From assembly GCF_036172515.1 (NCBI RefSeq), contig NZ_JAXKVW010000011.1:1-64000 (forward strand): a stretch of 64,000 nt of DNA. Reading direction: 5' to 3'. Shown one piece after another: positions 277 through 41,533 of this stretch. The notes beneath the pieces were generated by a model that ran no database searches, was not told where the DNA came from, and saw only the letters and a list, made by a program, of their open reading frames with translations. How positions within the stretch are numbered: the first letter of the stretch is position 1; the number at the start of each line of letters is the position of its first letter. Both the position numbers and the translations under genes were made by a program. Source of the DNA: Flexistipes sp. Lineage in GTDB: Bacteria > Chrysiogenota > Deferribacteres > Deferribacterales > Flexistipitaceae.

Positions 277-420
277 TTCAAGTTTCGCACTTCGTTTTGT
301 CATTGCGAAGCCCTGTGGAAACAGGGTTGTGGCAATCTCAAAACAAGAAAAGTAGAGAGATTGCTTCGTCGTTTTCACTCCTCGCAAAGACGTGTAATAA
401 GTGTAAGTGCGAAACTTGAG
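277..420 (+). mobile_element. MITE-like element, copy 1
   Basis: 144 bp bounded by the terminal inverted repeat CTCAAGTTTCGCACTT; the left end has one change, T for C at its first base. The flanks share the direct repeat TTATAA (271-276 and 421-426), consistent with a target duplication. The interior has a CCCTGT/ACAGGG hairpin and a GCAATCTC/GAGATTGC stem, and no reading frame. The element lies 101 bp upstream of hicB. Confidence 0.8.
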
Positions 421-521
421 TTATAATTTATTGTATAACAGTGCCAACTAAAAAACAAAATATTGCAAAAAATATAGTTTCCTGTAAATTATAACTAAGA
501 ATTTTTAGGAGAATTAAATAT

Positions 522-734
522 ATGAAAGAGTTGATTTTTCAAATTGAAGATGATCCAGAAGGTGGCTTTACTGCCAGAGGTTTAGGAGAAAGCATTTTTA
601 CCGATGGAAACAGTTGGAAAGAATTAAAAACAAATATAAAAGATGCCGTAAAATGCCATTTTGACGAAAGTGAAATTCCAAAAGTGATAAGGCTTCATTA
701 TGTTAAAGACGAGATAATGGAAGTTGCTTCGTAA
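522..734 (+). CDS. hicB: HicB-like antitoxin
   Basis: A 70-residue protein that looks like the short HicB fold: an N-terminal strand (KELIFQIEDDPEGGFTARG) followed by a helix and a final strand, resembling a degenerate RNase H-like domain. It lacks the C-terminal DNA-binding helix of longer HicB proteins, so any autoregulation would need a different route. ATG follows AGGAG at a good distance. It overlaps hicA by 11 bp, so the pair is probably translationally coupled. In this family HicB binds and neutralises the HicA mRNA interferase. Family assignment rests on sequence style and the partner. Confidence 0.75.
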   Translation: MKELIFQIEDDPEGGFTARGLGESIFTDGNSWKELKTNIKDAVKCHFDESEIPKVIRLHYVKDEIMEVAS

Positions 735-972
735 AAATGTCAATGCATCAGATTTGATTACATTCCTGCAACAATACGGATATAGAGAAGTGAGGCAAAC
801 CGGAAGTCATATAAGGTTAGTTTCAGAATACAAACAACATAAACATAAAATAACAATTCCAAACCATAAACCAATAAAAATAGGTACTTTGAATAGCATT
901 GTTAATAACGTAGCAGAATATGTGGGTAAAGAAAAACATGTTATTATCAATGAACTAAACGAGAGTCTTTAG
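724..972 (+). CDS. hicA: HicA-like mRNA interferase toxin
   Basis: An 82-residue protein with a double-stranded RNA-binding-like fold. The TGSHIRL motif near residue 27-33 carries the histidine that is catalytic in HicA toxins. A second conserved stretch, ITIPNHKPIKIGTLNSI, matches the usual end of the domain. The frame opens just before position 724 and has no early ATG, so TTG at 724 inside the hicB 3' end is the most likely start. A weak start and coupling would keep toxin output below antitoxin. In this pair the order is antitoxin first, the reverse of E. coli hicAB. Confidence 0.8.
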   Translation: MLRKNVNASDLITFLQQYGYREVRQTGSHIRLVSEYKQHKHKITIPNHKPIKIGTLNSIVNNVAEYVGKEKHVIINELNESL

Positions 973-1414
973 TAAGAATGGATAATCTATAATTCATGAA
1001 AATCATTTTAATGTTTGCTGGACCTGACAGGTAATACCAAGTTGCATTTGTTAAAGTAACAAAGGATGCACGGTGTTAGCTTGCCAAAGCAGTTTTTGCA
1101 AAACTATCATTGTAGTCATGGCGGGGCTCAGCCCGCTGTCTGACACGTGAAGCCCCACTTCCAAAACCTTTTTAGGCTTGAGACTTTTGAATAATTGCCT
1201 TATTGTCACCCTGAACTTGGTTCAGGGTCTCATAAATTGTTGATAATCATAGATCCCGAAACAAGTTCGGGATGACCTTTTATAGTTATTCAAAGCTCTC
1301 GGCTTATTATTCTTTTGACAACAACTTGTAAGCCAGTAGGAGAGACCATTTCCTCCCCCAAGCACATAAGAATTTATGTACTCGGTTAGGCGGGGTACTT
1401 ATTCAAAGTTCTAA
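973..1414. other. Intergenic region rich in palindromes
   Basis: No gene is supported. The region carries a GCGGGGC/GCCCGC near-palindrome (1121-1136), two adjacent hairpins (1209-1227 and 1253-1273), and an AGCACATAA/TTATGTACT hairpin (1361-1382). A stretch around 1179-1215 recurs in inverted orientation near 40142-40185. This looks like an accumulation site for small repeats. Confidence 0.6.
1209..1273. repeat. Double intergenic hairpin (CCCTGAAC and ATCCCGAA stems)
   Basis: CCCTGAAC/GTTCAGGG form an 8-bp stem with a 3-base loop (1209-1227). ATCCCGAA/TTCGGGAT form an 8-bp stem with a 5-base loop (1253-1273). The arrangement resembles short palindromic intergenic repeats seen in many bacterial genomes. 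Confidence 0.6.
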
Positions 1415-2056
1415 TCACGGAAACGGTTTGAAATAGTCAAAATAATCGATATTATCGCTGTAAAAGTATTTAATGCGGTTATAATAGTTGTTGTCTTCCA
1501 TTGAACAGACGATTGAGATGAGATAATTGCCGTTTTCTGTTACAAAATCTCCGGTTTCGCAGTTTACATCGTAATAGCCTGAATTTCTTAAATCATTTTC
1601 TTTTGAGGAAACCAGCCCGCTCATATCTTCATAATTTATTTCACAAGGCCAGCCGTAGGGAAAGAGGGAATCACCGTTTACAGTTTCACTGTATGAATAT
1701 TCGTCGCAAAAACCATTTTCGCAGATTTCTTTTTCCACCTGGAGTATATAGCTGTTGTTGAAGGTTTGGCATGAGCCTGGATTAAAAGTTATATCCACAA
1801 TATTTATATCGGTTGTACGTTTGTCGATATAAACTGTGTGGTCAAAGTCCTCTTTATCTATTTTTTGTATACGGGTCAGGTAATCCATGTATCCCCTGAA
1901 ATTTATTTCTGTATTTTCTATATCAAAATCACTTCCGAAAAAAATATACCATTGAAGCTGCGAATCGGCATCCGAAGAACTGTAATAAGTGCTGAAACCT
2001 ATGTTGCAAGCGGCTAAAAGAAAAATTGCAGGAATGATTAACAGTAACTTTTTCAT
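1415..2056 (-). CDS. Predicted lipoprotein of unknown function
   Basis: A 213-residue protein starting MKKLLLIIPAIFLLAAC. It has a charged n-region, a hydrophobic core and an LAAC lipobox with cysteine 17 as the lipidation site, so it should be a membrane-anchored envelope lipoprotein. The mature part is rich in Asn, Asp, Ser and Tyr and has six or more cysteines (such as CQTF, EICENGFCDEY, WPCEI, NCETG), which suggests disulfides outside the cytoplasm. No family is recognised. A TTG four codons upstream is possible, but the ATG fits the signal peptide. The 3' end is duplicated at 201-253. Confidence 0.7.
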   Translation of the reverse strand: MKKLLLIIPAIFLLAACNIGFSTYYSSSDADSQLQWYIFFGSDFDIENTEINFRGYMDYLTRIQKIDKEDFDHTVYIDKRTTDINIVDITFNPGSCQTFNNSYILQVEKEICENGFCDEYSYSETVNGDSLFPYGWPCEINYEDMSGLVSSKENDLRNSGYYDVNCETGDFVTENGNYLISIVCSMEDNNYYNRIKYFYSDNIDYFDYFKPFP

Positions 2057-2189
2057 GATAATAAGCAAGATCCCCCGTAAAATTTAAATATTAATATTAT
2101 ATTGATTAAAATATATAAAATTGCAATGTTTTATAACTGCTATGCTCCTATTTATTAACGAGCCACAGCTATAGCGGGACGCTGTTATA

Positions 2190-2275
2190 GTGAAATGGTG
2201 GATTAGTGAGGTAGAGGTAAAGGTAAAGGTTGAGGTTGAAAAAGTTGATTAGGTTGAGATGGTTGAGTGGGCTTT
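2190..2275 (+). repeat. Degenerate tandem array (8-mer then 6-mer units)
   Basis: It begins with GTGAAATG, GTGGATTA and GTGAGGTA (octamer spacing), then shifts to hexamers of the GAGGTA/AAGGTA/GAGGTT type. The strand is almost free of cytosine. Related arrays occur at 11595, 14070 and 28463. Confidence 0.6.
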
Positions 2276-2283
2276 CAATATTG

Positions 2284-2327
2284 AACGTTGAATCCGCCCA
2301 AGGCGGACAAAGCATTGAACCTTTAAT
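2284..2327 (+). repeat. 44-bp intergenic repeat, copy A
   Basis: Matches the reverse complement of 13971-14014 over 44 bases with seven mismatches and no gaps. The centre is a CCGCC-CAA-GGCGG hairpin. The other copy has the compensated pair CCGTC/GACGG, so the stem is conserved while its sequence changes. Confidence 0.6.
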
Positions 2328-2408
2328 ACCCCTAATACCGGCTGGCGCCTCTACTATTTCAAAGCATATCGGTTGACAATTTAAAAGAAAAGCTGATAAA
2401 ATTAATAT

Positions 2409-2552
2409 ATAAAGTTTCGCACTTCTTTTTGTCATTGCGAAACCCTGTGTAAACAGGGTTGTGGCAATCTCAAAACAAGAAAAGTAGAGAGATTGCTTCG
2501 TCGTTTTCACTCCTCGCAAAGACGTGAAAACAGTGTAAGTGCGAAACTTGAA
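2409..2552 (+). mobile_element. MITE-like element, copy 2
   Basis: 144 bp. The ends match the CTCAAGTTTCGCACTT inverted repeat except for two changes in the outer three bases on the left and one outer base on the right. It is flanked by the perfect 7-bp direct repeat TTAATAT (2402-2408 and 2553-2559). The interior hairpins are as in copy 1. It ends just upstream of the cbiM ribosome site. Confidence 0.85.
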
Positions 2553-2581
2553 TTAATATATTAACAAAGGAGGGTGGATGT

Positions 2582-3541
2582 ATGCATATGGCTGATGCTC
2601 TGCTTTCAGTGCCGGTGGGTGTTACTTTTTGGGGGATATCAGGTGCTGCTGCCTGTTATGCTTCTTCAAAAATGAAAAAAGACCTTGATGAGGAAAAAAC
2701 CATTCCCCTTATGGGGGTTGCGGGTGCATTTGTATTCGCCTTGCAGATGGTGAATTTTGCTATACCGGGAACCGGCTCAAGTGGGCATTTTGCCGGAGGC
2801 TTCCTTCTGGCACTCCTGCTGGGGCGTCACGCATCATTTCTTGTAATGTCATCGGTTTTGTTGGTTCAGGCACTGTTTTTTGCAGACGGAGGGCTGCTTG
2901 CACTTGGATGCAATATTTTTAATCTTGCATTTATTCCCTCATACATAGTTTATCCGTTGTTTAAAAACATAATTGATAAAAATGAAAGCAAAACAGCCAT
3001 ATGGAGCGGTGCGTTTTTATCCCTTTGTCTTGGTGCAGTTATGGTCTCGATGCAGACGGGGATCTCAGGTATTGCCGAGCTGCCGTTTTCAAAGATGCTG
3101 CTGCTGATGCTGGGAATTCATCTGCTTATTGCGGTATTTGAAGGGGCCATAACAGTAGGGTCATATATGTTCATAAAACGTTATTCATTACAGACAGAGC
3201 TTAAAAGTGAGAAGGGAAAGCTTAAACCGTATTTTAGTATACTTTCTGTTTCTTTAATAATTGCAGCGGTCGTTTCTCTGTTTGCATCATCAAAACCGGA
3301 CGGTTTGGAATGGTCTGTATACAATATAATGGGCAGGGCATCCGAACCTCATTCCATGACAGGGCAATTTCATAACTTTTTAGGGAGTTTGCAGGAGAAA
3401 ATCGCATTTCTACCGGATTATGCATTTGCCGGAAGTTCCAGTCAGTGGGGCACATCGGTTTCAGGAATTGCCGGAGCTGTTATTGTTATTATTCTGGCCT
3501 CCTCACTTGGATATATAATCAGAAAAGCCAATAAAAATTGA
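2582..3541 (+). CDS. cbiM: Cobalt/nickel ECF transporter substrate-binding membrane subunit (CbiM-CbiN type)
   Basis: A 319-residue integral membrane protein. The N-terminus MHMADAL matches NikM/CbiM proteins, where the amino group of Met1, His2 and a later histidine (here probably His69 in SSGHFAGG) bind the metal in a buried site. The C-terminal part has two further membrane segments around 216-235 and 290-312 joined by an extracytoplasmic loop with KPDGLEWS and PDYAF, typical of CbiN/NikN. This is therefore a fused M-N subunit. ATG at 2582 follows AAAGGAGG and keeps the essential Met-His start. Sequence alone does not tell cobalt from nickel. Confidence 0.9.
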   Translation: MHMADALLSVPVGVTFWGISGAAACYASSKMKKDLDEEKTIPLMGVAGAFVFALQMVNFAIPGTGSSGHFAGGFLLALLLGRHASFLVMSSVLLVQALFFADGGLLALGCNIFNLAFIPSYIVYPLFKNIIDKNESKTAIWSGAFLSLCLGAVMVSMQTGISGIAELPFSKMLLLMLGIHLLIAVFEGAITVGSYMFIKRYSLQTELKSEKGKLKPYFSILSVSLIIAAVVSLFASSKPDGLEWSVYNIMGRASEPHSMTGQFHNFLGSLQEKIAFLPDYAFAGSSSQWGTSVSGIAGAVIVIILASSLGYIIRKANKN

Positions 3542-4299
3542 AAACCGCTCAGGACAGGTTGCAGCATCTAACTGCATTTGAGGAACTTGCCGAAAGTGAC
3601 TTTCCTTTAAACATAGTGAGTCCTGCAGTAAAAATCATTGTTGCTGCAGTATTCATTATATTGACTATCAGCGTTAATAAATACGATGTTATTCATTCCC
3701 TTCTCCTGACATCATTTACATGTTTTCTCATAGCAATAGCTCCTTTGAAAGTGACAAGTGTATTAAAGATGCTTTTATATCTCAGTCCCTTTGTCCTGCT
3801 GCTTGTTATTTTTAATCCGGTTTATGATAAATCCGTTATTACAATTGCGGGTTACCAGGTATACGGCGGGTATGTGTCAGCTTTTACCACTGTGTTGAAA
3901 TTTATAAACACTACCACTGTTTCTGTGCTGATAGTTTCCAGTACCAAATTTAATCATATAGCATCTTCATTGAGATTTTTCAGAGTGCCGAAATTTCTTG
4001 TTATACAGTTTATGGTGATGTACAGGTTTATTTTTATTTTTCTTTACGATATCATTCAGTCGCTGCAGGCGGTTAATTCAAGAGGTTTGCAAAGTGCTGG
4101 GTTTTCCTGGCGCAATATGAAAGCGATAATTTCCGCTTTTTTTGTAAAATCGGTATTGCGGGGTGAAGAAGTTTATAATGCTATGCTTTCCAGAGGGTTT
4201 GAAATAAAAAATTTTAAATTTGATAATAAAATAAATATCACCGATATTTTCTTCGGTTTTTGTTCATTATTGTACGTTATTATTGTGAGGTTTGTGTAA
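3538..4299 (+). CDS. cbiQ: ECF transporter T component, CbiQ family
   Basis: A 253-residue membrane protein with about five hydrophobic segments and the two short signature motifs by which T components couple to the ATPase. Here they read SRG at 181-183 and SRG at 218-220 (ARG in the consensus). It starts with TTG at 3538, overlapping the cbiM TGA, so it is translationally coupled. In the complex CbiQ transmits ATP hydrolysis by CbiO to the metal-binding CbiM. Confidence 0.9.
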   Translation: MKTAQDRLQHLTAFEELAESDFPLNIVSPAVKIIVAAVFIILTISVNKYDVIHSLLLTSFTCFLIAIAPLKVTSVLKMLLYLSPFVLLLVIFNPVYDKSVITIAGYQVYGGYVSAFTTVLKFINTTTVSVLIVSSTKFNHIASSLRFFRVPKFLVIQFMVMYRFIFIFLYDIIQSLQAVNSRGLQSAGFSWRNMKAIISAFFVKSVLRGEEVYNAMLSRGFEIKNFKFDNKINITDIFFGFCSLLYVIIVRFV

Positions 4300-4300
4300 A

Positions 4301-5020
4301 ATGAGTCATCACTTTATAGAAATTAATGGGCTGGGATATATATATCCGGACGGGACAAAAGCTGTGGATGATGTGAATCTTTATATTTCACACGGAGAAT
4401 CCGTTGCCATTCTCGGTTCCAACGGAGCGGGTAAGTCCACACTGATTAAACATTTGAACGGGACTATCCTGCCTGTGAAGGGTTCTGTGAATATCGGCGG
4501 CACGCCTGTTACAAAAAAAACACTGAAAACTATCAGGTCTACAGTAGGACTTGTGTTTCAGAATACGGACAATCAATTGTTTATGCCGAGTGTATTTGAG
4601 AATGTTGCATTCAGCCCCCGTAATATAGGGATCACCGGAGATGAACTGAAGAAAGTGGTGGAGGAGTCGCTTGAAAAAGTTGATGCACTCGGGCTGATTG
4701 ATAAACATCCGTTTAAGCTTTCCGGCGGTGAAAAAAGAAAAGTCTGTATTGCTTCTGTAATTGCTTCCAATCCTGAAATCCTGGTTTTGGATGAGCCGAC
4801 TGCGGAAATTGATCCTAAGGGAATCGGAGGTTTGGTTTCAATTTTAAGACAGTTCAGCCATACTAAAATCATTTCCTCTCACAATCTGAAGTTTTCAAGG
4901 GCGGTTTGCAGCAGAGGCGTGGTAATGCAGGAGGGCAGAATAGTATTCGACGGTGAACTGGATGAAATTTTCAGCAACGATAAACTCTTGGAAGCAGCCG
5001 GTCTGAAAGAAAATTATTGA
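4301..5020 (+). CDS. cbiO: ECF transporter ATPase, CbiO family
   Basis: A 239-residue ABC ATPase with Walker A GSNGAGKS (39-46), signature LSGGE (140-144) and Walker B ILVLDEP (160-166). The upstream in-frame TTG at 4292 lies inside cbiQ; ATG at 4301, one base after the cbiQ stop, is the better start. It powers cobalt or nickel uptake with CbiM and CbiQ. Its 3' end overlaps the convergent HAD gene by 7 bp, leaving no room for a terminator between them. Confidence 0.92.
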   Translation: MSHHFIEINGLGYIYPDGTKAVDDVNLYISHGESVAILGSNGAGKSTLIKHLNGTILPVKGSVNIGGTPVTKKTLKTIRSTVGLVFQNTDNQLFMPSVFENVAFSPRNIGITGDELKKVVEESLEKVDALGLIDKHPFKLSGGEKRKVCIASVIASNPEILVLDEPTAEIDPKGIGGLVSILRQFSHTKIISSHNLKFSRAVCSRGVVMQEGRIVFDGELDEIFSNDKLLEAAGLKENY

Positions 5021-5691
5021 AGTTTATCAACCAATTCTTCCAGATTTGCTACCGTAATTGTGGGTTCAATCTCCCATGGATCGAAAACGGCACTTTCACT
5101 TCTTTTTACCCATGCGGATTTTATCCCGGCTGAGACGGCACCGATTACGTCAAAAGGATTGCTTGATATAAGCCATACTTCGTTGTTGTATGCTCCGGCC
5201 GATCTTAAAAAATGAGCATAGACGGCAGGGCTGGGTTTAAAAGTTTTAAGATCATCCACACTGATCAGGTTGATGAAATAGTTTCGTATATTTGCATTTG
5301 TTAAGAGGGTTTCCAGTGCATCTTTGCTGCCGTTTGAAAATGCAAAAAGTCGGAAATTCATATCAAAAGCCTTTTTCAGCCCTTTTAAAGTGTCATTAAA
5401 AGGCGGCAGTTTTGAGTACAAATTCATAAGATTGTCTTTTTCTTTTGCTTCAATATTTATATCTAATGCACGGCAGGTGTATTCCAAAGCATCTTTTGTG
5501 CATTCGGCAAAGGTCTTATAATTTTGCATCAAACCTCTTCTGAAAGAGTATTCCAGCTGTTTGTTCCTCCACATTTCGGAAAATTCCCCAGCTTTTTCAG
5601 CGGCATATTTCTCCAGCTCAACCTTAAGGCCGTGGGTATCGATAAGTGTCCCGTAAACATCAAAAGCCAATGTAATGTTGTTTTTGCTCAT
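5014..5691 (-). CDS. HAD-family hydrolase, haloacid dehalogenase type II-like
   Basis: A 225-residue cytoplasmic HAD protein. Motif I is FDVYGTL with nucleophile Asp11, motif II is AFSNGS, the motif III lysine lies in KTFKPSPAVY, and the late loop is SSNPFDVIGA. The DVYGTL motif, an Arg-rich cap stretch (SFRRGLMQNY) and the WVKR end match (S)-2-haloacid dehalogenases, which replace the halogen of 2-haloacids with OH. The real substrate could be another small phosphate ester. ATG at 5691 follows GGGGGA; longer frames upstream lack a ribosome site. Confidence 0.8.
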   Translation of the reverse strand: MSKNNITLAFDVYGTLIDTHGLKVELEKYAAEKAGEFSEMWRNKQLEYSFRRGLMQNYKTFAECTKDALEYTCRALDINIEAKEKDNLMNLYSKLPPFNDTLKGLKKAFDMNFRLFAFSNGSKDALETLLTNANIRNYFINLISVDDLKTFKPSPAVYAHFLRSAGAYNNEVWLISSNPFDVIGAVSAGIKSAWVKRSESAVFDPWEIEPTITVANLEELVDKLQ

Positions 5692-5712
5692 AAATCCCCC
5701 TTGTCTTTGGAA

Positions 5713-5730
5713 GCGGGACTTCAGTCCCGC
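5713..5730. repeat. GCGGGACT-TC-AGTCCCGC palindrome
   Basis: An 8-bp perfect stem with a 2-base centre. It is followed by CATGTTTGACAATA. Relatives with the same neighbours lie at 13843-13863 (inverted), 40057-40072 and 40108-40119 (inverted). Confidence 0.65.
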
Positions 5731-5802
5731 ATGTTTGACAATAAGCACACTTGCATATTAGTTTGCTATATCTTTTCTTGTTTTGCGATTTCTCCACTCC
5801 AC

Positions 5803-5828
5803 CGAGCACATAAATGCTTATGTGCTCG
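5803..5828. repeat. CGAGCACATAA hairpin
   Basis: A perfect 11-bp inverted repeat CGAGCACATAA/TTATGTGCTCG with a 4-base loop ATGC. Less perfect relatives are at 1361-1382 and 29955-29991. Confidence 0.65.
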
Positions 5829-5985
5829 CTTCCGGTCGAAATGACACGAATAGGTAGTTGTCATTCCGAGCGAAGCCCAGAGATTTCTATCTATATGCCA
5901 ACAATTTCTGCGTATCTGTTTAACAATTTCGCTCTTTCTAATTTATTTGCTACAAAGTAATATGTCAATGTGTGGTTTAAAGACC

Positions 5986-6076
5986 GTGATGGGTAATGGG
6001 TAATGCGTGATGCGTAATGTGTTATGGGTGATGGGTTATGGGTTATGGGTTATGGGTTATGGGTTATGGGTTATGG
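5986..6076 (+). repeat. Heptamer tandem array, 13 units
   Basis: Thirteen consecutive 7-bp units with no slippage. The first seven vary (GTGATGG, GTAATGG, GTAATGC, GTGATGC, GTAATGT, GTTATGG, GTGATGG) and the last six are identical GTTATGG. The array ends 9 bases before the stop of the convergent minus-strand membrane protein gene. Confidence 0.9.
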
Positions 6077-6085
6077 GTGAGAAAC

Positions 6086-6478
6086 TCATCTGTAAAAATA
6101 ATATAAAATTATTGGGAGAATGAAGAGCCATATTGGTATGAGAATCCAGATTCTTCCTTTGAACAGATTATAATCGTTCAGCAGTTTGGAAAACGGTATT
6201 TTTGCAACAAAATGACCGAATAAAAATTCGAAAGTTATTGTTAAAACAGCCCACATTAGACCGATGCTTACAGCAGGAAGAAGGGATAAAACAGGAGCAA
6301 AATATCCTAAAGCCAATGTGTAAACAGCGAAGATTATAATCAGCAAAATGGTTGACAATTGGTGTGATTTTAATTCACCGCTAAACCGTCCAATAATTTT
6401 TTCCCTGATAATTCCATTAAAAACGGCTAAAGGAATCATTCCGAGCCAAATCAATAAATAAGTAGTAAATAATTTCAT
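6086..6478 (-). CDS. Small membrane protein of unknown function
   Basis: A 130-residue protein with four predicted membrane segments (about 3-24, 42-64, 66-90 and 108-128) separated by short basic loops. The cytoplasmic loop after segment 1 reads REKIIGRFSGELKSHQLS. I do not recognise a family. It stands alone on the minus strand and its 3' end abuts the heptamer repeat array. ATG is preceded by GGTTAGGC, a weak ribosome site. Confidence 0.6.
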   Translation of the reverse strand: MKLFTTYLLIWLGMIPLAVFNGIIREKIIGRFSGELKSHQLSTILLIIIFAVYTLALGYFAPVLSLLPAVSIGLMWAVLTITFEFLFGHFVAKIPFSKLLNDYNLFKGRIWILIPIWLFILPIILYYFYR

Positions 6479-6591
6479 TTGCCTAACCTTATGTTTGTGT
6501 ATTTTATTTGATGCATCTTGACCTTTGTGTTACTCTCAATATATGTTTGTTATTATTCAAATATTTTTAACACATTGTCAAGGAGTTTAAA

Positions 6592-7308: not shown

Positions 7309-7329
7309 TCAGCTCAGGGAGGCTTAAAT

Positions 7330-11205: not shown

Positions 11206-11225
11206 TTATTAGATTTGGAGTGAAA

Positions 11226-11636: not shown

Positions 11637-11693
11637 TTGATTGAACTTTTTACTTTAAAAATGATTCAAATAATGTATATTTCTTCTAAATAA

Positions 11694-11836
11694 CTCAAGT
11701 TTCGCACTTCTCTGTGTCATTGCGAAACCCTGTGAAACAGGGTTGTGGCAATCTCAAAATAATATAAAAAGAGAGATTGCTTCGTCGTTATCACTCCTCG
11801 CAAAGACGTGTAATAAGTGCAAGTGCGAAACTTGAG
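11694..11836 (+). mobile_element. MITE-like element, copy 3
   Basis: The cleanest copy: 143 bp with a perfect 16-bp terminal inverted repeat CTCAAGTTTCGCACTT (11694-11709 and 11821-11836) and a perfect 7-bp flanking repeat TAAATAA (11687-11693 and 11837-11843). It ends 25 bases before the radical SAM gene start, so that gene's ribosome site lies just past the insertion. Confidence 0.9.
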
Positions 11837-11861
11837 TAAATAAAATAAAAAGAGGTAGTGA

Positions 11862-25371: not shown

Positions 25372-26445
25372 ATGAAAGTATTAAGAAATCTGTTCGTTAT
25401 TATCTTTTTGTTTGCCGTGTTTATCCCCTTTGGCAATGCTGAGGAAAAAAGGGTAAGGTGGAAACTTGCAATGACATGGGGTCCGACGCTTCATCCGTTT
25501 GTTGATACTGTGGAAAATATGGCCGATATGGTCGAAACAATGAGCGGCGGCAATTTTGTCATACGAATCGATGCTTCAAACATCCATAAGTCACCGTTTG
25601 GAGTATTCGATATGGTAAAACTCGACCAGTATGAAATGGGGCACACCGCTTCATACTACTGGAAAGGAAAAGATATGTCATTCCTTCCTTTGACAACAAT
25701 GCCTTTTGGGATGACAACTCCTGAGCAGTATGCCTGGTTTTATTATGGCGATGGTATGGAACTTATGCAAAAAGCTTATGAAAAAAACGGTATGCTCTCT
25801 TTTCCCGGCGGTAATACCGGAAATCAGATGGGGGGTTGGTTCCGCAAAGAAATCAATTCTCTGGATGATTTAAAGGGGCTAAAAATGCGTATTCCGGGGT
25901 TTGCCGGTCAGGTTTTGGCAAAGCTGGGCGTTACTGTTACCAATATTCCTCCCGGTGAGCTTTATACTTCTCTGGAGAGGGGAACTATTGATGCTCTTGA
26001 ATGGGTTGGCCCCGGTATGGATATAAATATGGGATTTCATAAAATTGCACCATATTATTATACGGGCTGGCATGAGCCTGCAACTGAGCTGCAGTTTCTT
26101 GTAAATAAGAAAGCTTATGATAAGCTGCCTGAGAAATATAAAGAAATATTAAAAGTGGCAATGAAAACGGCAGCTTACGATATGTACATTCAGAATTACC
26201 ATATGAGTGCAAATGCCTGGTCTACAATGAAGGAAAAATATCCGAATATCAAAGTAAAAACGTTTCCTGATGAAGTACTAAATGCAATGAAAGCTTCATA
26301 CAATGAGCTGCTAAGCAAATATAAAAAAGAGAATGCTCTTTTTAAGGAGATTATGGAGTCCAAGGAAGCTTATCTGAAAAAAGCACGTGACTGGACTTAT
26401 ATCTCCGATTATCTCTATTTGAAATCCATGTCTGACACAGAATAA
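25372..26445 (+). CDS. dctP: TRAP transporter substrate-binding protein (TakP-like), copy 1
   Basis: A 357-residue exported protein with a signal peptide ending near GNAE (about 24). The mature domain contains KMRIPGFAGQVLAKLG and LERGTIDALEWVGPGMDINMGF, close in style to the TakP branch, which binds 2-oxo acids such as pyruvate. The conserved arginine in RIPGF would form the salt bridge to the ligand carboxylate. It heads the operon and is followed by a terminator, then dctQ and dctM, so it can be made in excess of the membrane subunits. Confidence 0.87.
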   Translation: MKVLRNLFVIIFLFAVFIPFGNAEEKRVRWKLAMTWGPTLHPFVDTVENMADMVETMSGGNFVIRIDASNIHKSPFGVFDMVKLDQYEMGHTASYYWKGKDMSFLPLTTMPFGMTTPEQYAWFYYGDGMELMQKAYEKNGMLSFPGGNTGNQMGGWFRKEINSLDDLKGLKMRIPGFAGQVLAKLGVTVTNIPPGELYTSLERGTIDALEWVGPGMDINMGFHKIAPYYYTGWHEPATELQFLVNKKAYDKLPEKYKEILKVAMKTAAYDMYIQNYHMSANAWSTMKEKYPNIKVKTFPDEVLNAMKASYNELLSKYKKENALFKEIMESKEAYLKKARDWTYISDYLYLKSMSDTE

Positions 26446-28689: not shown

Positions 28690-29769
28690 ATGGGAATGAT
28701 GAAAAAATTGTTGTACTCTATGCTTATTATCTTGCTTGTTGCTTCTGCAGGGTTTACAGCGGAGAAAAAAGTTCGATGGAAACTGGCAATGACCTGGGGA
28801 CCAACACTGCATCCGCTTTCTGATACTGCGGAGCATATGGCGGAAATTGTTAAGGAACTCAGTGACGGTAATTTTGTAATTAATATTGATGCTTCCAATG
28901 TGCATAAAGCCCCTTTCGGTATTTTTGATATGGTAAAACTCGGTCAGTATGAAATGGGGCACACCGCTTCATATTATTATAAGGGCAAAAATATTGCTTT
29001 TCTGCCCCTTACTACCATGCCTTTCGGTATGACTGCTCCGGAACAGTATGCATGGTTTTATTACGGAGGCGGAGTTGAGCTTATGCAGGAAGCTTACGCT
29101 AAGCATGGAATGCTGGCTTTCCCCGGTGGTAACACGGGAAATCAGATGGGCGGATGGTTTACCAAGAAAATCAATTCTCTGAAGGATCTACAGGGGCTGA
29201 AAATGCGTATTCCCGGATTTGCCGGTCAGATTATGTCCAAACTTGGTGTTACGGTTACCAATATACCTCCAGGTGAGCTTTACACAGCACTTGAAAGGGG
29301 CACAGTTGATGCTGTTGAATGGACAGGCCCCGGTATGGACATAAACATGGGTTTTCATAAAATTGCCAAATATTATTATACAGGCTGGCATGAGCCGGGT
29401 TCTGAAGTGGAATTTCTCATAAATGAAAAGGAATACAATAAATTGCCTGAAAAATATAAAAAGATACTCAAAATAGCTATGAAAACAGCGGCGTACGATA
29501 TGTATATTCAAAGCTATGAAATGAACGCCGAAGCGTGGCAGCAGATGAAAGAAAAGTATCCTGATATTAAGGTGAAAGTATTTCCCGAAGAAGTGCTTAA
29601 AGAAATGAAGACTGCTTATGACAGTTTGGTTGCCAGTTATGAGAAAGAATCTCCGATGTTCAAAAAAATTATGAAGTCTAAAAGGGCTTATCTGGATAAA
29701 GTGCGTGACTGGACTCATATATCCGACTACTTATACCTGAAGTCAACATCAGAATCCAACCTAAAGTAA
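28690..29769 (+). CDS. dctP: TRAP transporter substrate-binding protein (TakP-like), copy 2
   Basis: A 359-residue exported protein, closely related to the gene at 25372 over its full length; long blocks are identical, such as GELYT near residue 200. The signal peptide ends near GFTAE. ATG at 28690 follows GGAGG; a longer frame from 28612 lacks a signal-peptide start. It is separated from dctM by 245 bp of repeats, so it probably has its own promoter. It is a likely duplicate with altered specificity or regulation. Confidence 0.87.
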   Translation: MGMMKKLLYSMLIILLVASAGFTAEKKVRWKLAMTWGPTLHPLSDTAEHMAEIVKELSDGNFVINIDASNVHKAPFGIFDMVKLGQYEMGHTASYYYKGKNIAFLPLTTMPFGMTAPEQYAWFYYGGGVELMQEAYAKHGMLAFPGGNTGNQMGGWFTKKINSLKDLQGLKMRIPGFAGQIMSKLGVTVTNIPPGELYTALERGTVDAVEWTGPGMDINMGFHKIAKYYYTGWHEPGSEVEFLINEKEYNKLPEKYKKILKIAMKTAAYDMYIQSYEMNAEAWQQMKEKYPDIKVKVFPEEVLKEMKTAYDSLVASYEKESPMFKKIMKSKRAYLDKVRDWTHISDYLYLKSTSESNLK

Positions 29770-30246: not shown

Positions 30247-30324
30247 TTTTTAATATTATTAACAATCCCTTGCATATATATAAGGCTTTTGATTATAATG
30301 CCATAAATACAGCAGGAGGAAATA

Positions 30325-31044: not shown

Positions 31045-31056
31045 TCGGGGTAGGCA

Positions 31057-32241: not shown

Positions 32242-32256
32242 TGATGGTCTGAATAT

Positions 32257-33966: not shown

Positions 33967-34137
33967 TGCTATTCTTTCTTATATAATTAGGCGCATTATG
34001 ATATATTGCCTGATAAAATAATATATTTACTCTTGATTGTATTTATTAAATAGTTTATGTTTTATTCTGTCAGTTTCGTTTTCAGATACTGATTTTGTAT
34101 GTTATATTTTAGAAGAAGAACGATCCGGAGGTTTATT

Positions 34138-35841
34138 TTGAAAAGAATTCTGCCTGTATATGTTAATAAATTAAGCCCCTGTTATTCAAAAGATCATATG
34201 GGAAATACCGGCTGTCCCGCCGGTAATGATATACCACGTTTCTTAAGGCTTATTGCCTTAAGACGTTTTGAAGAAGCATTTTATGTTTTAAAAGAAACAA
34301 ATCCTTTTTCAGCCGGTTGCGGCAGATTTTGCGATCATCCGTGTGAGACGGCCTGCAACCGGGCTAAATTTGATCAGCCTGTGGATATCAAAGCTTTGGA
34401 AAGGTTTATAGCCGACTGGGGATATGCAAACAATCTGCAGCCTAAAGATATTAAAAATGACAAAGATAAAAGTATTGCAGTTGTAGGCTCAGGTCCTGCA
34501 GGGCTGACTGCGGCTTATTTTTTGTCTAAAGAAGGTTATAATGTGACCGTTTATGAAAAACATTCCAAAGCCGGAGGTTTACTTTCGCAGGGCATTCCTG
34601 AATACAGATACCCTGATGAGATTCTTGAGAAAGAGCTGGAATATATTTATAAAACAGGTGTCAAAGTTAAGCTTAATTACGAAATCAATAAAAACAGGTT
34701 TATTGATCTTGCGGAAGAATTTGATGCTGTAATCGTTGCCACGGGAGCTCAAAGTCCGGGTGTCCTCAATATTGAGGGAGAAGATGACCCTGCTGTGGAG
34801 AATGGTATAAAATTCTTGACGGATATAAATTTAAATAATCTCGAAAAAGTTAATGTGGGCAAAAATGAAAAGATAGGCATCATCGGCGGGGGATATACCG
34901 CTTTTGATGTTGCAAGGTGTTCAGCCAGGCTTGGTGCAGATCCGCATATTATTTACAGAAGAACGGTTAATGAAATGACGGCACACCCCGGTGAAGTAAA
35001 AGACAGTGAAGAAGAGGGCGTTACTTTTCATTTTCTCAGACAGCCTGTGAGAATAAAACGCAACGGCGATAAACTTAAACTTGTTTGTTCTGTGATGAAA
35101 CTGGGGCCCGTTGATGAAAGCGGGAGAGCTAAGCCTGTCCAGATGAAAGATGCATATGAAGAGTTTGAGCTTGACAGGATTGTTATGGCAGTAGGAGATA
35201 AACCTGATCTCTTTTTTGTGGGGGAAAGATTTATTAATGAGTATCCTAACCTTAACTGCCCTGATCTGCCCGATGAACTCAAAGATAAAATATTTATAGC
35301 CGGTGACTCAAGTATGGGTAATTCTGAGCTTGTTGGCATGGTCGTTAGGGCAGTCGGATCCGCTCAGATTACTGTGGAAAAAGTCAGAAAATTTTTGGGA
35401 GAAAAAATAGAGCCTTCGGAGAACAAGGAGATTTCTTTTTATAATACTATAAATACGAAATATTTTCAGGAAACCACCAGACTTGTTGAAAAGAGGATAG
35501 AGCTGGAGCAGAGGAAAAACACTTTTGAAGAGATAAATAAGACTATAGATGAGGATACGGCAGTGGTTTTTTCCGAGAGGTGTTTTTTCTGCGGCATATG
35601 CATTCAGTGTGACTGGTGTTATTATTACAGCGAGGGATCTCTGCTGAAACTGGGAAAGGAATGGTCACCGGCAATAGATGAGAGTTTTTATAAATATGTC
35701 CTTGATAAAATATCCGAAGCTTCTTTCAAAAGTGTTGAGGCCTGCCCAAGGTCTGCTTTGAGTATTACAGATGAAGATTCAAAGCTGATGGAAGTTTGTG
35801 ATTATCAGTTTGTAAACTTTGACGAAATAAAAGGTAAATAG
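34138..35841 (+). CDS. gltD: Glutamate synthase small subunit-like NAD(P)H oxidoreductase with extra Fe-S domain
   Basis: A 567-residue flavoprotein. An N-terminal cysteine-rich domain (CPAGNDIPRF, CGRFCDHPCETAC) carries 4Fe-4S clusters as in GltD. A first Rossmann motif VVGSGPAGLTAAYFL binds FAD and a second (IIGGGYTAFDVARCSARLG) binds NAD(P)H. A C-terminal CFFCGICIQCDWC motif adds a further 4Fe-4S cluster absent from standard GltD. TTG at 34138 follows CCGGAGG. It feeds electrons to the FMN subunit encoded two genes downstream. Confidence 0.85.
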   Translation: MKRILPVYVNKLSPCYSKDHMGNTGCPAGNDIPRFLRLIALRRFEEAFYVLKETNPFSAGCGRFCDHPCETACNRAKFDQPVDIKALERFIADWGYANNLQPKDIKNDKDKSIAVVGSGPAGLTAAYFLSKEGYNVTVYEKHSKAGGLLSQGIPEYRYPDEILEKELEYIYKTGVKVKLNYEINKNRFIDLAEEFDAVIVATGAQSPGVLNIEGEDDPAVENGIKFLTDINLNNLEKVNVGKNEKIGIIGGGYTAFDVARCSARLGADPHIIYRRTVNEMTAHPGEVKDSEEEGVTFHFLRQPVRIKRNGDKLKLVCSVMKLGPVDESGRAKPVQMKDAYEEFELDRIVMAVGDKPDLFFVGERFINEYPNLNCPDLPDELKDKIFIAGDSSMGNSELVGMVVRAVGSAQITVEKVRKFLGEKIEPSENKEISFYNTINTKYFQETTRLVEKRIELEQRKNTFEEINKTIDEDTAVVFSERCFFCGICIQCDWCYYYSEGSLLKLGKEWSPAIDESFYKYVLDKISEASFKSVEACPRSALSITDEDSKLMEVCDYQFVNFDEIKGK

Positions 35842-35856
35842 CCGGAGGATTTGACT

Positions 35857-37068
35857 ATGGAAAGCTATGAAAATACAGGATTATATCCACAAAAAGAAAT
35901 CAGTGTCAGGGAATTTTCCGGCGGCTCTGAAGGTATACCTTCAGGTGCATGCGGTCTGCTGGCTGCAGTTGGTGATTTCAAACTCAGTGCCCTTTTAAAG
36001 AGTGCTCTCTGCCTTCAATACAGAGGGAGAACCGGTGCCGGTGTTACACTTAAAGGGATTTACAAAGACCATAATTTCTATGTTTTTCATGTCATGTACA
36101 GAAACCAGCATAAAGTCAAGGAATTGGAGAATTTTATAGAAAGCTGGGGGGTTCATATTGTGGAATCTCAGGAGATGGTCCCCAGAAGACTTTATTATGA
36201 GTACGATATTCCTATAATTAAAAAGTATTATGTTGCTCCGCCGACGTTGGATGAAATCAGATACAGGGAGACCATAGATGATGAATATTTTTATATTTTA
36301 AAGCAGGTTACCAAATTTAATAAGATGTTTATTAAGGATGCCCGGATATTTTCCAGCTCCAAAGAAAACGGTACATTTCTGACTGCTTTTGAGCTTTTGG
36401 ATACAATGAGAATATACGATTTGGAGCAATTTGAGGATGCCGATTACGAAGCCTGTCTTATACATTTGAGGTGGCCTACAAGCTCCGGAAGAGGGCTTTG
36501 GTGGGGACCTCAGCCTATTTCAGTGGGTGAAATAGCAGGAATTCATAACGGTCATCTTTCCAGCGACAAAGCTAATGCTATAGCTCTTGAGCAGCTGGGG
36601 ATACACCTTCATGTGGGTACCGATTCTGAGGCTATTTTTCTTGAAGTTGATTACCTGTTGCGTAACGGCTATTCGATACAGGATATAGAGTGGATAATCA
36701 GCAGAAAGTTTCCATGTGAACTGGACAATATGAACGAAAATGAACGGCAGCGTTTCAATGAACTTGTTTCCGATCCTTATCTGAAAAAGATGAAAATGAG
36801 CGGACCGGCCACTTCAATTGTAATGTCTGAAGATGAAATTATAGGATTTACCGACAGGGATCATTTAAGATCTTTCAGTATAGGCTATAATGATAAAACG
36901 GCCTTTTTGGCCAGCGAACAGAGGGCAATAATTTCTGCGGCTTATTTCCTGCAGGAGGAACTTGACACTATTTATGATCCGGATGCAGGTAAAGTTGAGG
37001 GGTTTTCTGTTAAAAATAAAAAAATTGAGAAACTAAATTATGGGTGGAAAAGAGATGTACAGGTTTAA
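35857..37068 (+). CDS. Glutamate synthase glutaminase subunit (class II glutamine amidotransferase)
   Basis: A 403-residue protein with the class II amidotransferase fold: ACGLLAAVG near residue 30, then LQYRGRTGAGV, GIHNGHLSS and VGTDSEAIF, which bind glutamine. The nucleophile must be an N-terminal cysteine, so about 30 residues should be removed at the Ala-Cys junction, as in GltB propeptides. The domain is a separate gene, as in archaeal-type glutamate synthases. ATG at 35857 has GGAGG 8 bases upstream; a TTG at 35851 is too close to it. Confidence 0.85.
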   Translation: MESYENTGLYPQKEISVREFSGGSEGIPSGACGLLAAVGDFKLSALLKSALCLQYRGRTGAGVTLKGIYKDHNFYVFHVMYRNQHKVKELENFIESWGVHIVESQEMVPRRLYYEYDIPIIKKYYVAPPTLDEIRYRETIDDEYFYILKQVTKFNKMFIKDARIFSSSKENGTFLTAFELLDTMRIYDLEQFEDADYEACLIHLRWPTSSGRGLWWGPQPISVGEIAGIHNGHLSSDKANAIALEQLGIHLHVGTDSEAIFLEVDYLLRNGYSIQDIEWIISRKFPCELDNMNENERQRFNELVSDPYLKKMKMSGPATSIVMSEDEIIGFTDRDHLRSFSIGYNDKTAFLASEQRAIISAAYFLQEELDTIYDPDAGKVEGFSVKNKKIEKLNYGWKRDVQV

Positions 37069-39787
37069 TAGTAACGAAATTACAGTTAAAAGATCTATAA
37101 AATATGTAGAACCGGATAGTACCGGGATTTACGCTCAGGGAGCAAAGTATTGGGTTAAAGTTACTGATGATAAAGAGGAGCCTGGCAGAGGGTGCATACA
37201 TTGTGCCACATGTGTTGAAGCTTGCACTCACAATTTGAAAAACCCGGACAGTGAAACCGGAGTTTTTGATATGGAAACCGTTTACTATGATGAGAAAGGA
37301 AACCGTGTCCAGCCTGACAATGACAGTATTAATTTTATCGAAAAAATATTGTGGATAAACCCTGATGAATGCTGCAACTGTAAAAGATGTGTAAAGATGT
37401 GTCCTCAGAGGGCAATAAAAGTAACGGATAACCCTGATTATAATGATATGGGGGTAAATCTGTCCAATGCTGAAATCATCAACAACTGTCTTTCCAGAGC
37501 AGACGGTAAATCAACTGTCAGCAGTGCACATCTGGGAAGATTTTCGTCCAAATTAAGTGAAGACTGGCTTATAGATGCTGCAGAAATACTCAGCCCCCAA
37601 AGGGATCATCTGCATGAGTATGCAGGAAGAATGGACAATATGTATCTGGGCAAAAGAAATGCTCGTTTTCATTGCAAAACGCCTATATTTGATGTTCATA
37701 TGAGCTACGGCTCAAACAGCCACGAGGCTTTTCTTTCAAGAATCATGGCCAGTATAAAACTTGGCAGACCTTTTTTTACCGGAGAAGGATATATTCATCC
37801 TGATATGATGCCTGCAGCAAAGCACTGCATCCTGCAATTTGGCTCTGGCGGGTACGGCCCCTGGGTGGAGCTTGATAAATTTGCAGGAATTTCCATGAAA
37901 TACGGACAGGATGCCAAAAAGGGAAAAGGCGGCAGACTCCAGGCCAAAAAGAATGATATTGAAATTGCTCTGTTAAGGTGTGTTGAAGCGTTAAGAAATC
38001 TTACGGCACCGAATCCCCAGCATTTGCAGTATTCGATAGAAGAACTCCCCATGCGGGTGGAGTCTTTGAGAGCACTGCTTGGTGAGGATAAATTAATAGG
38101 CGCCGATGTTTACGGTACAGCATGGAATTTTCAGGAAATAGTGGTGGCCCTTGCCAAAGCCGGCTTTGACTACATAACCGTAAAAGCCGGAGATGGTTCC
38201 ACGGGCGCTGCACACTTAGTTGATATGCAGAACAGAGGGCTCAATGTCGTTTATCTTACTCACATAGCCGATCTTGCTTTAAGAAAAGAAGGTCTGAGGG
38301 AACAGATTTCAGTTATTGCTGAAGGCGGAGTATTGGATAGTTTTCATGCTTTTCTGGTTCTCCTGACTGGTGCTGATTTTGTTGGTATGGGAATGAGAAC
38401 TTTACACCCCCTTGGATGTACTCTTTGCAGAAGATGTCATACAGGACAGTGTGCATGGGGCATTACCTCAAGACCTTATGGTACCAGAATTGACCCTGGT
38501 ATGGGAAGCGAAAGAATAGTAAAAATGGTTGAGAGCTTTGTGGAAGATATGGAAGGTTTGGCCGCAGGCTTGGGGATGAGCAGTCATACCGATGTGGTCG
38601 GAGCAAGACGATTCAGGTACCATGGAAGCGATCCGCTTTTGTATGAAACATTCGGCAGAGGAGAAGCTGAGAAGCAGGTTGAAGAAGTGGCCATAAAAGA
38701 GCGTTATCACAAGATATTCAAGACAAAAAAGGAATTGAGAATACAATTTAAAGACTTTTTCCAGAATTCATTAGAAAATATTAAAGATGATACCATTACT
38801 ATAGATGTGGGAGTTGATCAGGTGGACAGCAGAAGCCTGAATGTTTTAATGAAGGACGCAACTGAGAGAGGGGTGAAGAAGTTTGTTCTGGAAAATGTTG
38901 TGGGTCAGCGGATAATAGGTACCGGTGTAAAGGCTGATGAGATAACTGTAAAAGGATTGGTGGGCAACCATTCCTTTGCGTTTGTGCGGAATGTTAAAAT
39001 AAATGTTGTTCCGACATCTGTGGGTGGTTTTAAAGTGCCCGGCAATACACAGGTGGGAGTGGCAAACACTTCCAATCCCCACGAAATTAATATCGCAGGG
39101 CATGTAAGTGACTTGTTTGCCGCATACGCTGTAAGCGGAACATTCCGCGTGGCAAAAAGCGGAGGAGTAAGAAACCTGCTTCTAATGAAAGCCGGAATTC
39201 CCGAGGAATGGAATAAAATAGATTTAAACAAATATGAAAATTATTCTGATGAAAAGATACTTGAGGATTTACTTTTGAACTACCAGGAGCGGAAGGCCAG
39301 ACTGAGAAAAATGGGGTGGAATAAATTTATCCGCTCCCAGGAAGATAAAATTAATGACCGTAAGCCACCTGTGGCGGTTTTTGGTGTAGGTATAGAAAGG
39401 GGTATGGGTGATTATTTTATGGAATACGCCCAAGGCGGAATCGGTATTGTATTAAACGTTGTTAATAAAGATAATCCAATCGGATACTATATTTGCAGCG
39501 GAATGACAGCCGGTGCTGCATATATTCGTGGTAACATTTCCGATTCACAGCTTGGTGTTGGGGTGAAAAAAATCGAATATCTTACTGACTCTGATAAATC
39601 GATGCTCAAAAAGGAGATTGAGGACTTTCTTGATAAGTTTTTGAATATAAATATTGATGAAGAGTATGGTTCAAAACTCAGGGAATTTGCGGACAAATAT
39701 AAAAGTGAACCCAGAATTGTATTGGATGAGTTTTGTAAAATTATCCCTGTTTCATCCGGCATAAGGGTTTCACGGATAAGTGAATAA
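37055..39787 (+). CDS. Glutamate synthase FMN and GXGXG subunit with N-terminal ferredoxin domain
   Basis: A 910-residue protein. Two ferredoxin-like clusters come first (CIHCATCVEACTH and CCNCKRCVKMCP), then the FMN-binding synthase barrel, which has AKKGKGGRL, VKAGDGSTGAA and the 3Fe-4S site CTLCRRCHTGQC. The final 250 residues are the GXGXG beta-helix domain (a glycine-rich stretch near KPPVAVFGVGIERG onward). It makes two glutamates from 2-oxoglutarate and ammonia. An upstream in-frame ATG at 37040 is possible. It overlaps the glutaminase gene by 14 bp. Confidence 0.88.
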   Translation: MYRFNSNEITVKRSIKYVEPDSTGIYAQGAKYWVKVTDDKEEPGRGCIHCATCVEACTHNLKNPDSETGVFDMETVYYDEKGNRVQPDNDSINFIEKILWINPDECCNCKRCVKMCPQRAIKVTDNPDYNDMGVNLSNAEIINNCLSRADGKSTVSSAHLGRFSSKLSEDWLIDAAEILSPQRDHLHEYAGRMDNMYLGKRNARFHCKTPIFDVHMSYGSNSHEAFLSRIMASIKLGRPFFTGEGYIHPDMMPAAKHCILQFGSGGYGPWVELDKFAGISMKYGQDAKKGKGGRLQAKKNDIEIALLRCVEALRNLTAPNPQHLQYSIEELPMRVESLRALLGEDKLIGADVYGTAWNFQEIVVALAKAGFDYITVKAGDGSTGAAHLVDMQNRGLNVVYLTHIADLALRKEGLREQISVIAEGGVLDSFHAFLVLLTGADFVGMGMRTLHPLGCTLCRRCHTGQCAWGITSRPYGTRIDPGMGSERIVKMVESFVEDMEGLAAGLGMSSHTDVVGARRFRYHGSDPLLYETFGRGEAEKQVEEVAIKERYHKIFKTKKELRIQFKDFFQNSLENIKDDTITIDVGVDQVDSRSLNVLMKDATERGVKKFVLENVVGQRIIGTGVKADEITVKGLVGNHSFAFVRNVKINVVPTSVGGFKVPGNTQVGVANTSNPHEINIAGHVSDLFAAYAVSGTFRVAKSGGVRNLLLMKAGIPEEWNKIDLNKYENYSDEKILEDLLLNYQERKARLRKMGWNKFIRSQEDKINDRKPPVAVFGVGIERGMGDYFMEYAQGGIGIVLNVVNKDNPIGYYICSGMTAGAAYIRGNISDSQLGVGVKKIEYLTDSDKSMLKKEIEDFLDKFLNINIDEEYGSKLREFADKYKSEPRIVLDEFCKIIPVSSGIRVSRISE

Positions 39788-39921
39788 TTTATAATTTTTG
39801 ACCGGTATGGGGCTTTATTGAATAGTTTTCAGGCATTTTAAGACCTTTGAATAACTAAAAAAAGTCACACCGAACTTGTTTCTGTATCTATAATTATTAG
39901 TAAGTTACGAGACCCTGTAGC

Positions 39922-39960
39922 ACCAACCTGACAGGTTGGTAAATATGTGGAACACATTAA
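39922..39960. repeat. ACCAACCTG palindrome followed by a 19-bp repeat
   Basis: ACCAACCTG-A-CAGGTTGGT is a perfect 9-bp inverted repeat with a single central base. It is followed directly by AATATGTGGAACACATTAA, identical to 46018-46036. Confidence 0.55.
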
Positions 39961-40056
39961 ACAAATGATTACCTACGGTAAATTTATCTTCGCTATGCTC
40001 AGATGCTACAAGGTAAGAGCTTTGAATAATGTCTTTTTCTCCGTTTCAGGAAGTGG

Positions 40057-40119
40057 GACTTTAGTCCCGCATGCTTGATAATACTGGGTCTCGGAATAAA
40101 CTTTGCACGGCTGAAGCCG
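40057..40119. repeat. Two palindromes of the GGGACT/CGGCT family in inverted arrangement
   Basis: GGGACT-TT-AGTCCC (40057-40070) and CGGCT-GA-AGCCG (40108-40119), with flanks CAGGAAG and GCTTCCTG in opposite orientations. Members of the same family are at 5713 and 13847. Confidence 0.55.
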
Positions 40120-40565
40120 AGCTTCCTGAATTATTCATAGCTCTCAGGGTGACAATAAAGCAATTATTTAAAAGCCTCGAAAAAAGTTATTAAAAGATTT
40201 TGAATTGTATCCAAAGCTGAGTATTAACATATAATTTATAAAGTTAATAAATTATAAATGCATAACCTGATTTTATTATCGAGCAATATATTCTTTGTAT
40301 TAATTCAGTAGAAATAACATTTTTTTAAATGATTGTTTATAAAATTTCAGTAAAAAATTTAATATATAATATATCCTTGTTGAAAATAAGTTACAATTTT
40401 TATTTAATATAAAACTTTTTTATTTTTAATTTACAAAATAAAGTATTTGACATATATAATCCTGTTAAATAAAACATTTTTATATATAGGTTTTTATTAA
40501 ATTTTGTTTGGTGTTTTATGATAAAGCATAACGAACCATTTTTTATTAAAATTAAAGGAGGTTTT

Positions 40566-41225
40566 ATGAGTAACGGAAAATTTGCAGATGTAATTGTTGA
40601 CAGAAAAGGGAAGGGTGAAGTCAAAGAAACATTTGACAAAGCTTCAAATGTAGCCGAAACAATAATTAGAGACACTTCGGCAAATCCTGCTCCACTCGGG
40701 CTTATGGGTTTTGGCATGACCACTATTTTGTTGAATATGCATAACGTTGGTTTATTCGGCCTCAGCAGTATGATTATTGCAATGGGTATTTTTTATGGTG
40801 GACTTGCACAAATTATCGCTGGTGTTATGGAGTGGAAAAAGAAAAACACTTTTGGAACTGTGGCTTTTACATCTTACGGTCTCTTCTGGATTACACTGGT
40901 GGCCATGATTTTGCTGCCGAAAGCCGGCTTGATTAGTGCTCCGGCAAGTCACGAGGTGGCTGCTTATCTGTTTTTCTGGGGAATGTTTACCCTCATTATG
41001 TTTATAGGTACATTTAAGATGAATAAAGCTTTAATGACTGTTTTCTTTTTACTGACTATACTTTTCTTTTTGCTGGGATTTGCAGATGCTACAGGTAATC
41101 CAATGCTGAAAGTGATAGCAGGATATGAAGGGATTTTATGCGGGCTTTCTGCCGTATATGCCGGTGCTGCTCAGATTTTAAATGAAGTTTACGGAAGGAC
41201 TTTGCTTCCTCTCGGAGATTTGTAA
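40566..41225 (+). CDS. Acetate uptake transporter, SatP/YaaH family
   Basis: A 219-residue membrane protein with an N-terminal cytoplasmic stretch and about six segments. The signature [14 protein letters not shown] is the acetate-transporter NPAPLGL motif, which lines the substrate path. Members take up acetate or succinate with protons. ATG at 40566 follows AAAGGAGG; an earlier in-frame start at 40518 lacks a ribosome site. It is monocistronic, with a terminator after it. Confidence 0.88.
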
Positions 41226-41252
41226 TCAATCAAATGTGTTCTTAAAAGATTT

Positions 41253-41278
41253 AAAGCCTCCTTTACGGAGGCTTTTTT
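41253..41278 (+). terminator. Rho-independent terminator after the acetate transporter gene
   Basis: A 9-bp stem AAAGCCTCC/GGAGGCTTT with loop TTTAC, followed by a T run, 28 bases after the stop. Confidence 0.9.
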
Positions 41279-41337
41279 ATTTTGTATTATATTTTTGCCT
41301 ATCTTATGCTATATTTATACAGTTTAATTATTTATAT

Positions 41338-41533
41338 CTCAAGTTTCGCACTTCTCTGTGTCATTGCGAAACCCTGTGAAAAACAGGGTTGTGGCAATCT
41401 CAAAATGATATAAAAAGAGAGATTGCTTCGTCGTTATCACTTCCTGCCCTGTTAAATGCCACAGGCAATCAGCGAAGCTGATATTTAACAGGGTGAACAA
41501 AGACGTGCAATAAGTGCAAGTGCGAAACTTGTG
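41338..41533 (+). mobile_element. MITE-like element, copy 4, with internal insertion
   Basis: 196 bp with terminal repeats CTCAAGTTTCGCACTT and AAGTGCGAAACTTGTG (one change in the second). Flanks are TTTATAT (41331-41337) and TTAATAT (41534-41540), a near-perfect 7-bp match. About 53 extra bases relative to copy 3 lie near 41442-41497, bounded by CCCTGTTAAAT (41447-41457) and ATTTAACAGGG (41483-41493). It ends 32 bases before the DUF502 gene. Confidence 0.85.

Follow-up and report, generated by a model that had tools for sequence, protein, structure and literature searches.

Probable exchange of hairpin modules at fixed insertion sites in a MITE family of Flexistipes

The stretch analysed here (the window: 64,000 nucleotides, bases 1–64000 of contig 11 in the 2.47-Mb, 31-contig draft genome of a Flexistipes sp., hereafter G000) carries four copies of a repeat whose family is a genus-restricted bacterial miniature inverted-repeat transposable element (MITE), of a known kind. 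At insertions common to this genome and the finished, single-contig chromosome of its congener Flexistipes sinusarabici (G001; 2,526,590 bp), the element keeps its place, ends and target duplication, and whole hairpins in its interior often differ between the two species. We consider it probable, at approximately 0.8, that a MITE family served by a transposase acting in trans inserts into A+T-rich targets and exchanges its hairpin modules in place.

Modular interior and shared insertions

To delimit the copies, the DNA around all 75 exact 14-mer ends of G000 was read, the reversed control giving no such end; this yielded 47 two-ended copies plus approximately 10 partial or decayed ones. The element ends are 15–16 bp terminal inverted repeats, (N)TCAAGTTTCGCACTT, and the copies are mostly 132–291 bp long, with one of 489 bp that holds a nested insertion. 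No gene was called inside any G000 copy, and an Rfam search of eight loci, taken up to E = 0.1, returned tRNAs only and no RNA family for the element. All copies that were folded are strongly structured, with z values of −7 to −10.

The architecture is 142 + {0, 51} + {0, 78} bp plus a swappable hairpin tip, with length classes of 142, 193, 220 and 271 bp. Specifically, the variable parts are slot 1 (~78 bp), slot 4 (net ~51 bp) and, in slot 2, the hairpin tip. Each of the two main subfamilies shows slots 1 and 4 in all four filled and empty combinations, which indicates that the modules are not passed on together as one unit. In slot 2, a CCCTG hairpin occurs in 38 of the 39 parsed G000 copies versus 6 of 15 in relatives (Fisher p = 8e-6, a value that serves only as a guide because the copies are not independent), and such uniformity in G000 is as expected from homogenisation within a genome.

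Twelve insertions are common to G000 and F. sinusarabici, with flanks approximately 85–98% identical, and seven of them differ in that entire hairpins are cleanly gained, lost or swapped. Where shared copies differ in this way, the ends, the duplication and the neighbouring private single-nucleotide polymorphisms (SNPs) are kept. In the following, L numbers denote stretches read around element copies or related loci, and pairs denote G000 loci with their F. sinusarabici counterparts. Slot 4 alone differs in L067/L145 and in the first copy of L072/L147, slots 1 and 4 both differ in L062/L214, and the slot 2 hairpin is replaced by another hairpin in L079/L157 and L095/L213, the rest of the element being nearly identical in each case. 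Several modules differ in L094/L161 and in the second copy of L072/L147. The modules are unchanged between the species at L065, L082 and L101 (at 7949), and the shared insertions L073 and L087 are more diverged.

Private SNPs that lie 10–60 bp from a swapped module are common to both species, namely the right tag TTGCAAAAGATGC in L067 and the loop AAAATCTGAAAAGCATC in L095, and they argue against both misassembly and the replacement of whole elements. Under such replacement, resident copies would be overwritten end to end by homologous recombination. This would fit L094/L161, which differ over most of the left and middle, and a donor of the same subfamily such as L063 could explain the first copy of L072/L147; given the private tags kept near the module in L067/L145 and L095/L213, however, we regard it as unlikely.

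Target duplications, empty sites and the search for a parent

Over the 47 copies, agreement between left and right flanks exceeds that of shuffled pairings at k = 6–7 only, with mean identities of 0.66 (k = 6) and 0.56 (k = 7) against 0.48 and 0.43, respectively, and the target duplications are 6–7 bp long and A+T-rich. Fifteen chosen sites were compared with F. sinusarabici, at flank identities of mostly ~95% (range ~85–98%): seven are empty, four are shared, and four are unclear or not found. The empty sites hold one 7-mer for window copy 2 (TTAATAT), window copy 3 (TAAATAA) and L098 (TACTTAA); that of the second copy of L077 likewise has a single target copy, and those of window copy 4 and several others are empty with the target somewhat changed. 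The single 7-mer at the empty sites of copies 2 and 3 indicates that the MITE moved after the species split. An original prediction for the window had proposed a non-autonomous mobile element from its inverted ends and flanking duplications, and the empty sites now add to that case.

A parent element was sought by the end pattern in G000, F. sinusarabici and 98 other genomes, and also by way of the Pfam families PF01609, PF01797, PF13612 and PF00665; neither route gave an insertion sequence with these ends. Exact 15-mer ends number 44 in F. sinusarabici and three in a third genome of the same genus. The family was not found in 97 other genomes, where only two single 15-mer matches occur (in G074 and G081); both are taken as chance, being in coding-looking sequence with no partner within 3 kb. 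A scan of a sequence collection for the end plus GTCATTGCGA reached one Deferribacteraceae bin only, and the end sequence was not found in the literature searched. A 38-bp miniature at L102:3784-3821 comprises scarcely more than two ends, in A+T-rich surroundings.

The full-length insertion sequence (IS) with the same 16-bp ends that the original prediction proposed to look for did not turn up: searches of the genus with ends at 0–1 mismatch and for IS4-type, IS982-type and rve genes gave no autonomous element with matching ends. In F. sinusarabici, pairs of ends with up to one mismatch are all less than 400 bp apart except one, at 1,260 bp. This 1,260-bp relative (L136:1847-3106; G001:C1:1346346-1347605) has the same ends and was rejected as the parent IS because it carries a ParE-type toxin gene and no transposase; a 69-aa open reading frame (ORF) upstream of the toxin gene could be the antitoxin. 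An IS110 transposase gene (L137:1389-2417) was also considered as parent and is read instead as an insertion into a copy; within L137:1223-2417, this IS110-type gene begins inside the copy, approximately 165 bp from its left end; the right end of the copy was not found. In G000, PF01609 has one decayed match, and rve and PF13612 have none. IS4-type matches thus number 115 in F. sinusarabici versus a single decayed one in G000, where the draft assembly may hide some. A positive control is provided by the MITE nested in the 489-bp copy (L061:2999-3487), which has a 10-bp duplication, TAAAAGACTG, and ends, TTGGCACCCTCCCATTTT, that match an IS4-type IS of F. sinusarabici (429 aa). It is an object of the same type, resident in these genomes too, yet its parent IS is identifiable and that of the main family is not. 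The parent of a MITE can be missing from the genome that carries the MITE, and for many accepted MITEs none is known.

The hairpin modules might themselves be mobile, as REP-like units that a Y1/RAYT transposase inserts into fixed MITE sites. Both systems have intergenic hairpin modules, the modules are also seen outside the MITE family, and Y1 transposases are present in both genomes. However, a Y1 gene flanked by the same hairpin, as in REP/RAYT systems, was not seen: the hairpin flanking the 232-aa Y1 genes is a different one, CTCACACTTCGTAAGTGTGAG, and no MITE module was seen beside the sampled Y1 genes, including those of 297 aa. Additionally, a gained module takes the place of a few bases, unlike a clean insertion, and the Flexistipes MITE makes target duplications, whereas Y1 enzymes are not known to do so. 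We therefore hold mobile modules to be quite unlikely. Y1 transposase genes of the REP-associated type flanked by CTCACACTTCGTAAGTGTGAG hairpins are found in both species (L237:948-1619 and L236).

Position relative to genes and the window copies

All 47 G000 copies lie outside called genes, the calls for these position statistics coming from a simple codon-usage caller written for the analysis; the window is 89% coding. The original prediction that every copy precedes a gene, and in a single orientation, fails as a rule across the genome. Among 44 classifiable G000 copies, 28 are in codirectional, nine in divergent and seven in convergent gaps, a distribution similar to that of the background intergenic bases (23.4, 5.9 and 5.9 kb, respectively), and orientation in codirectional gaps is 19 same versus 9 opposite in G000 (p = 0.087) and 5:5 in F. 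sinusarabici. The random position and orientation named beforehand as contrary evidence are largely what was found; a lack of shared ends beyond the four window sites, the other such outcome, was not, as a genome-wide copy count showed them to be abundant.

Fourteen G000 copies lie 20–50 nt before a start codon, against 6.6 expected under uniform placement. With the A+T-rich target modelled, the comparison becomes 14 versus 9.8 in G000 (p = 0.07) and 19 versus 15.3 in both genomes (p = 0.14); the true target stands at the median 92nd percentile within its own gap, in a model trained on the same insertion sites that it then scores. The upstream position of the repeats thus mostly reflects a preference for an A+T-rich target rather than a built-in regulatory role. 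Just upstream of the copies 20–50 nt before a start lie promoter-like hexamers, with a mean best match of 8.26 of 12 versus 7.07 when shuffled, a score reached in 0 of 200 shuffles. The idea that the element itself supplies a promoter or terminator was rejected, there being no excess over shuffles. In front of cbiM, a promoter-like site is followed 6 bp downstream by copy 2, and because this site exists at the F. sinusarabici empty site, the element there probably became the leader of the cbiM transcript.

We consider it very unlikely that the repeat is a functional regulatory element (a structured 5′ leader, promoter or attenuator) that selection maintains, in one orientation, ahead of particular genes. 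The four window copies and many others do lie 24–45 nt (one 101 nt) before a start, mostly in one orientation, folding is strong, and copy 2 separates cbiM from a conserved promoter-like site. Against this stand the convergent copies, the orientation ratios and the background-like gap types, and target preference accounts for most of the position excess. Furthermore, the four window copies contain neither a promoter-like site on the gene strand nor a terminator-like site, the cbiM promoter is native and outside copy 2, and the orthologous genes of F. sinusarabici lack copies 2–4.

Within the window (Table 1), the four repeats were located exactly where the original prediction had placed them. 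Its 16-bp ends have nine matches at up to three mismatches versus 0.54 expected by shuffling, eight of the nine being four pairs of element ends, and its start-codon distances (101, 29, 25 and 32 nt for copies 1–4), perfect flanking 7-mers in copies 2 and 3 and 6-of-7 match in copy 4 are all correct. The duplication of copy 1 needed amending: it is 6 bp and reaches 7 (TTATAAT) only when base 277 is counted, hence 6–7 bp. As to the downstream genes, Pfam confirms cbiM, radical SAM and DUF502, whereas hicB is a naming by resemblance only, as the first ORF (522–734) has no match in Pfam or NCBIfam. Copy 4 is longer than the others because of an extra 55-bp hairpin module. None of the genome matches to PF01609, PF01797, PF13612 and PF00665 falls inside the window, of which no exhaustive transposase test was made. 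Elsewhere in the window, a 300-bp direct repeat (25443-25742 and 28761-29060; 75% identical) lies within two adjacent plus-strand ORFs, probably paralogous genes.

Table 1. Element copies and associated features in the window
Feature	Position	Strand	Remark
Left target duplication TTATAA, copy 1	271..276	.	right one at 421-426
MITE copy 1, 142-bp class	277..420	+	slots 1 and 4 empty, slot 2 = CCCTG hairpin
Left terminal inverted repeat, copy 1	277..292	+	end-pattern match
Slot 2 hairpin tip CCCTGTGGAAACAGGG	311..326	+	related copies carry different hairpins here
Right terminal inverted repeat, copy 1	405..420	-	end-pattern match
Promoter-like TTGACA-18-TAAAAT of cbiM	2373..2402	+	present too at F. 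sinusarabici empty site
Left target duplication TTAATAT, copy 2	2402..2408	.	right one at 2553-2559
MITE copy 2, upstream of cbiM	2409..2552	+	F. sinusarabici site empty
Left target duplication TAAATAA, copy 3	11687..11693	.	right one at 11837-11843
MITE copy 3, upstream of radical SAM gene	11694..11836	+	F. sinusarabici site empty, one TAAATAA
MITE copy 4, upstream of DUF502 gene	41338..41533	+	F. sinusarabici site empty, target diverged
Target duplication, copy 4			TTTATAT left, TTAATAT right (6/7)
Slot 4 hairpin module, copy 4	41443..41497	+	absent from copies 1-3

Proposed mechanism and known systems

We propose that a trans-acting transposase would recognise the terminal repeats and insert the element into A+T-rich 6–7 bp targets between genes, with duplication of the target. 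The interior is a branched palindrome of interchangeable hairpin modules, which may be gained, lost or swapped in a resident copy as the whole element stays put; the most likely route would be that hairpins are broken and then repaired from another copy, that is, short-tract gene conversion. Some copies landed between a native promoter and the ribosome-binding site, and probably turned into a structured 5′ leader of the gene as a by-product. Judged from sequence comparison, hairpin-centred gene conversion is our preferred mechanism, still unproven and held at about even odds. Evenly balanced, too, is the proposal that hairpin cassettes are exchanged rapidly in place, both arms together, at several sites per element and within approximately 5% flank divergence, and that this exchange, driven by breaks and repaired from other copies, may homogenise hairpin types within a species.

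Several points weigh against the explanation as a whole. Among all listed F. sinusarabici ends with at most one mismatch there is no IS with matching ends, and the IS4-type IS of that genome (115 matches) has ends that differ from those of the MITE family. The duplication length varies between 6 and 7 bp, the outermost end base is not fixed, and the genome of the window is a 31-contig draft. As another route to the module differences, replication slippage or template switching may have inserted or removed hairpins repeatedly. Least likely is that misassembly collapsed or exchanged repeat interiors and so gave these differences: a draft in 31 contigs, the proneness of 140–270 bp repeats and the near-uniform slot 2 of G000 would fit, but the private SNPs of L067 and L095, within one read length, match the finished F. 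sinusarabici chromosome.

The module behaviour of the Flexistipes MITE is closest to that of the BOX elements of Streptococcus pneumoniae, which are short, intergenic, MITE-like and modular, and in which strains can differ in the modules present at one and the same site (PMC3049150). The likeness, in modular behaviour only, extends to inverted ends, target duplications and modules, with some large copies of both carrying ORFs; BOX has other ends and sequence and varies mainly in the number of tandem boxB units (PMC3049150), whereas the Flexistipes MITE has two independent filled or empty slots and a swapped hairpin tip. RUP, Nezha, Correia and other MITEs are also non-coding and palindromic, with ends and a target duplication and presumed movement in trans (PMC10969869). 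Unlike the Flexistipes MITE, for which no parent was found, RUP and Nezha have candidate parent ISs with matching ends (PMC10969869), and the Flexistipes duplication differs in being 6–7 bp and A+T-rich.

Two genomes that have the same insertions and private SNPs but different hairpins constitute a natural record of hairpin turnover, and hairpin-directed gene conversion in bacteria thereby becomes testable from sequence alone.

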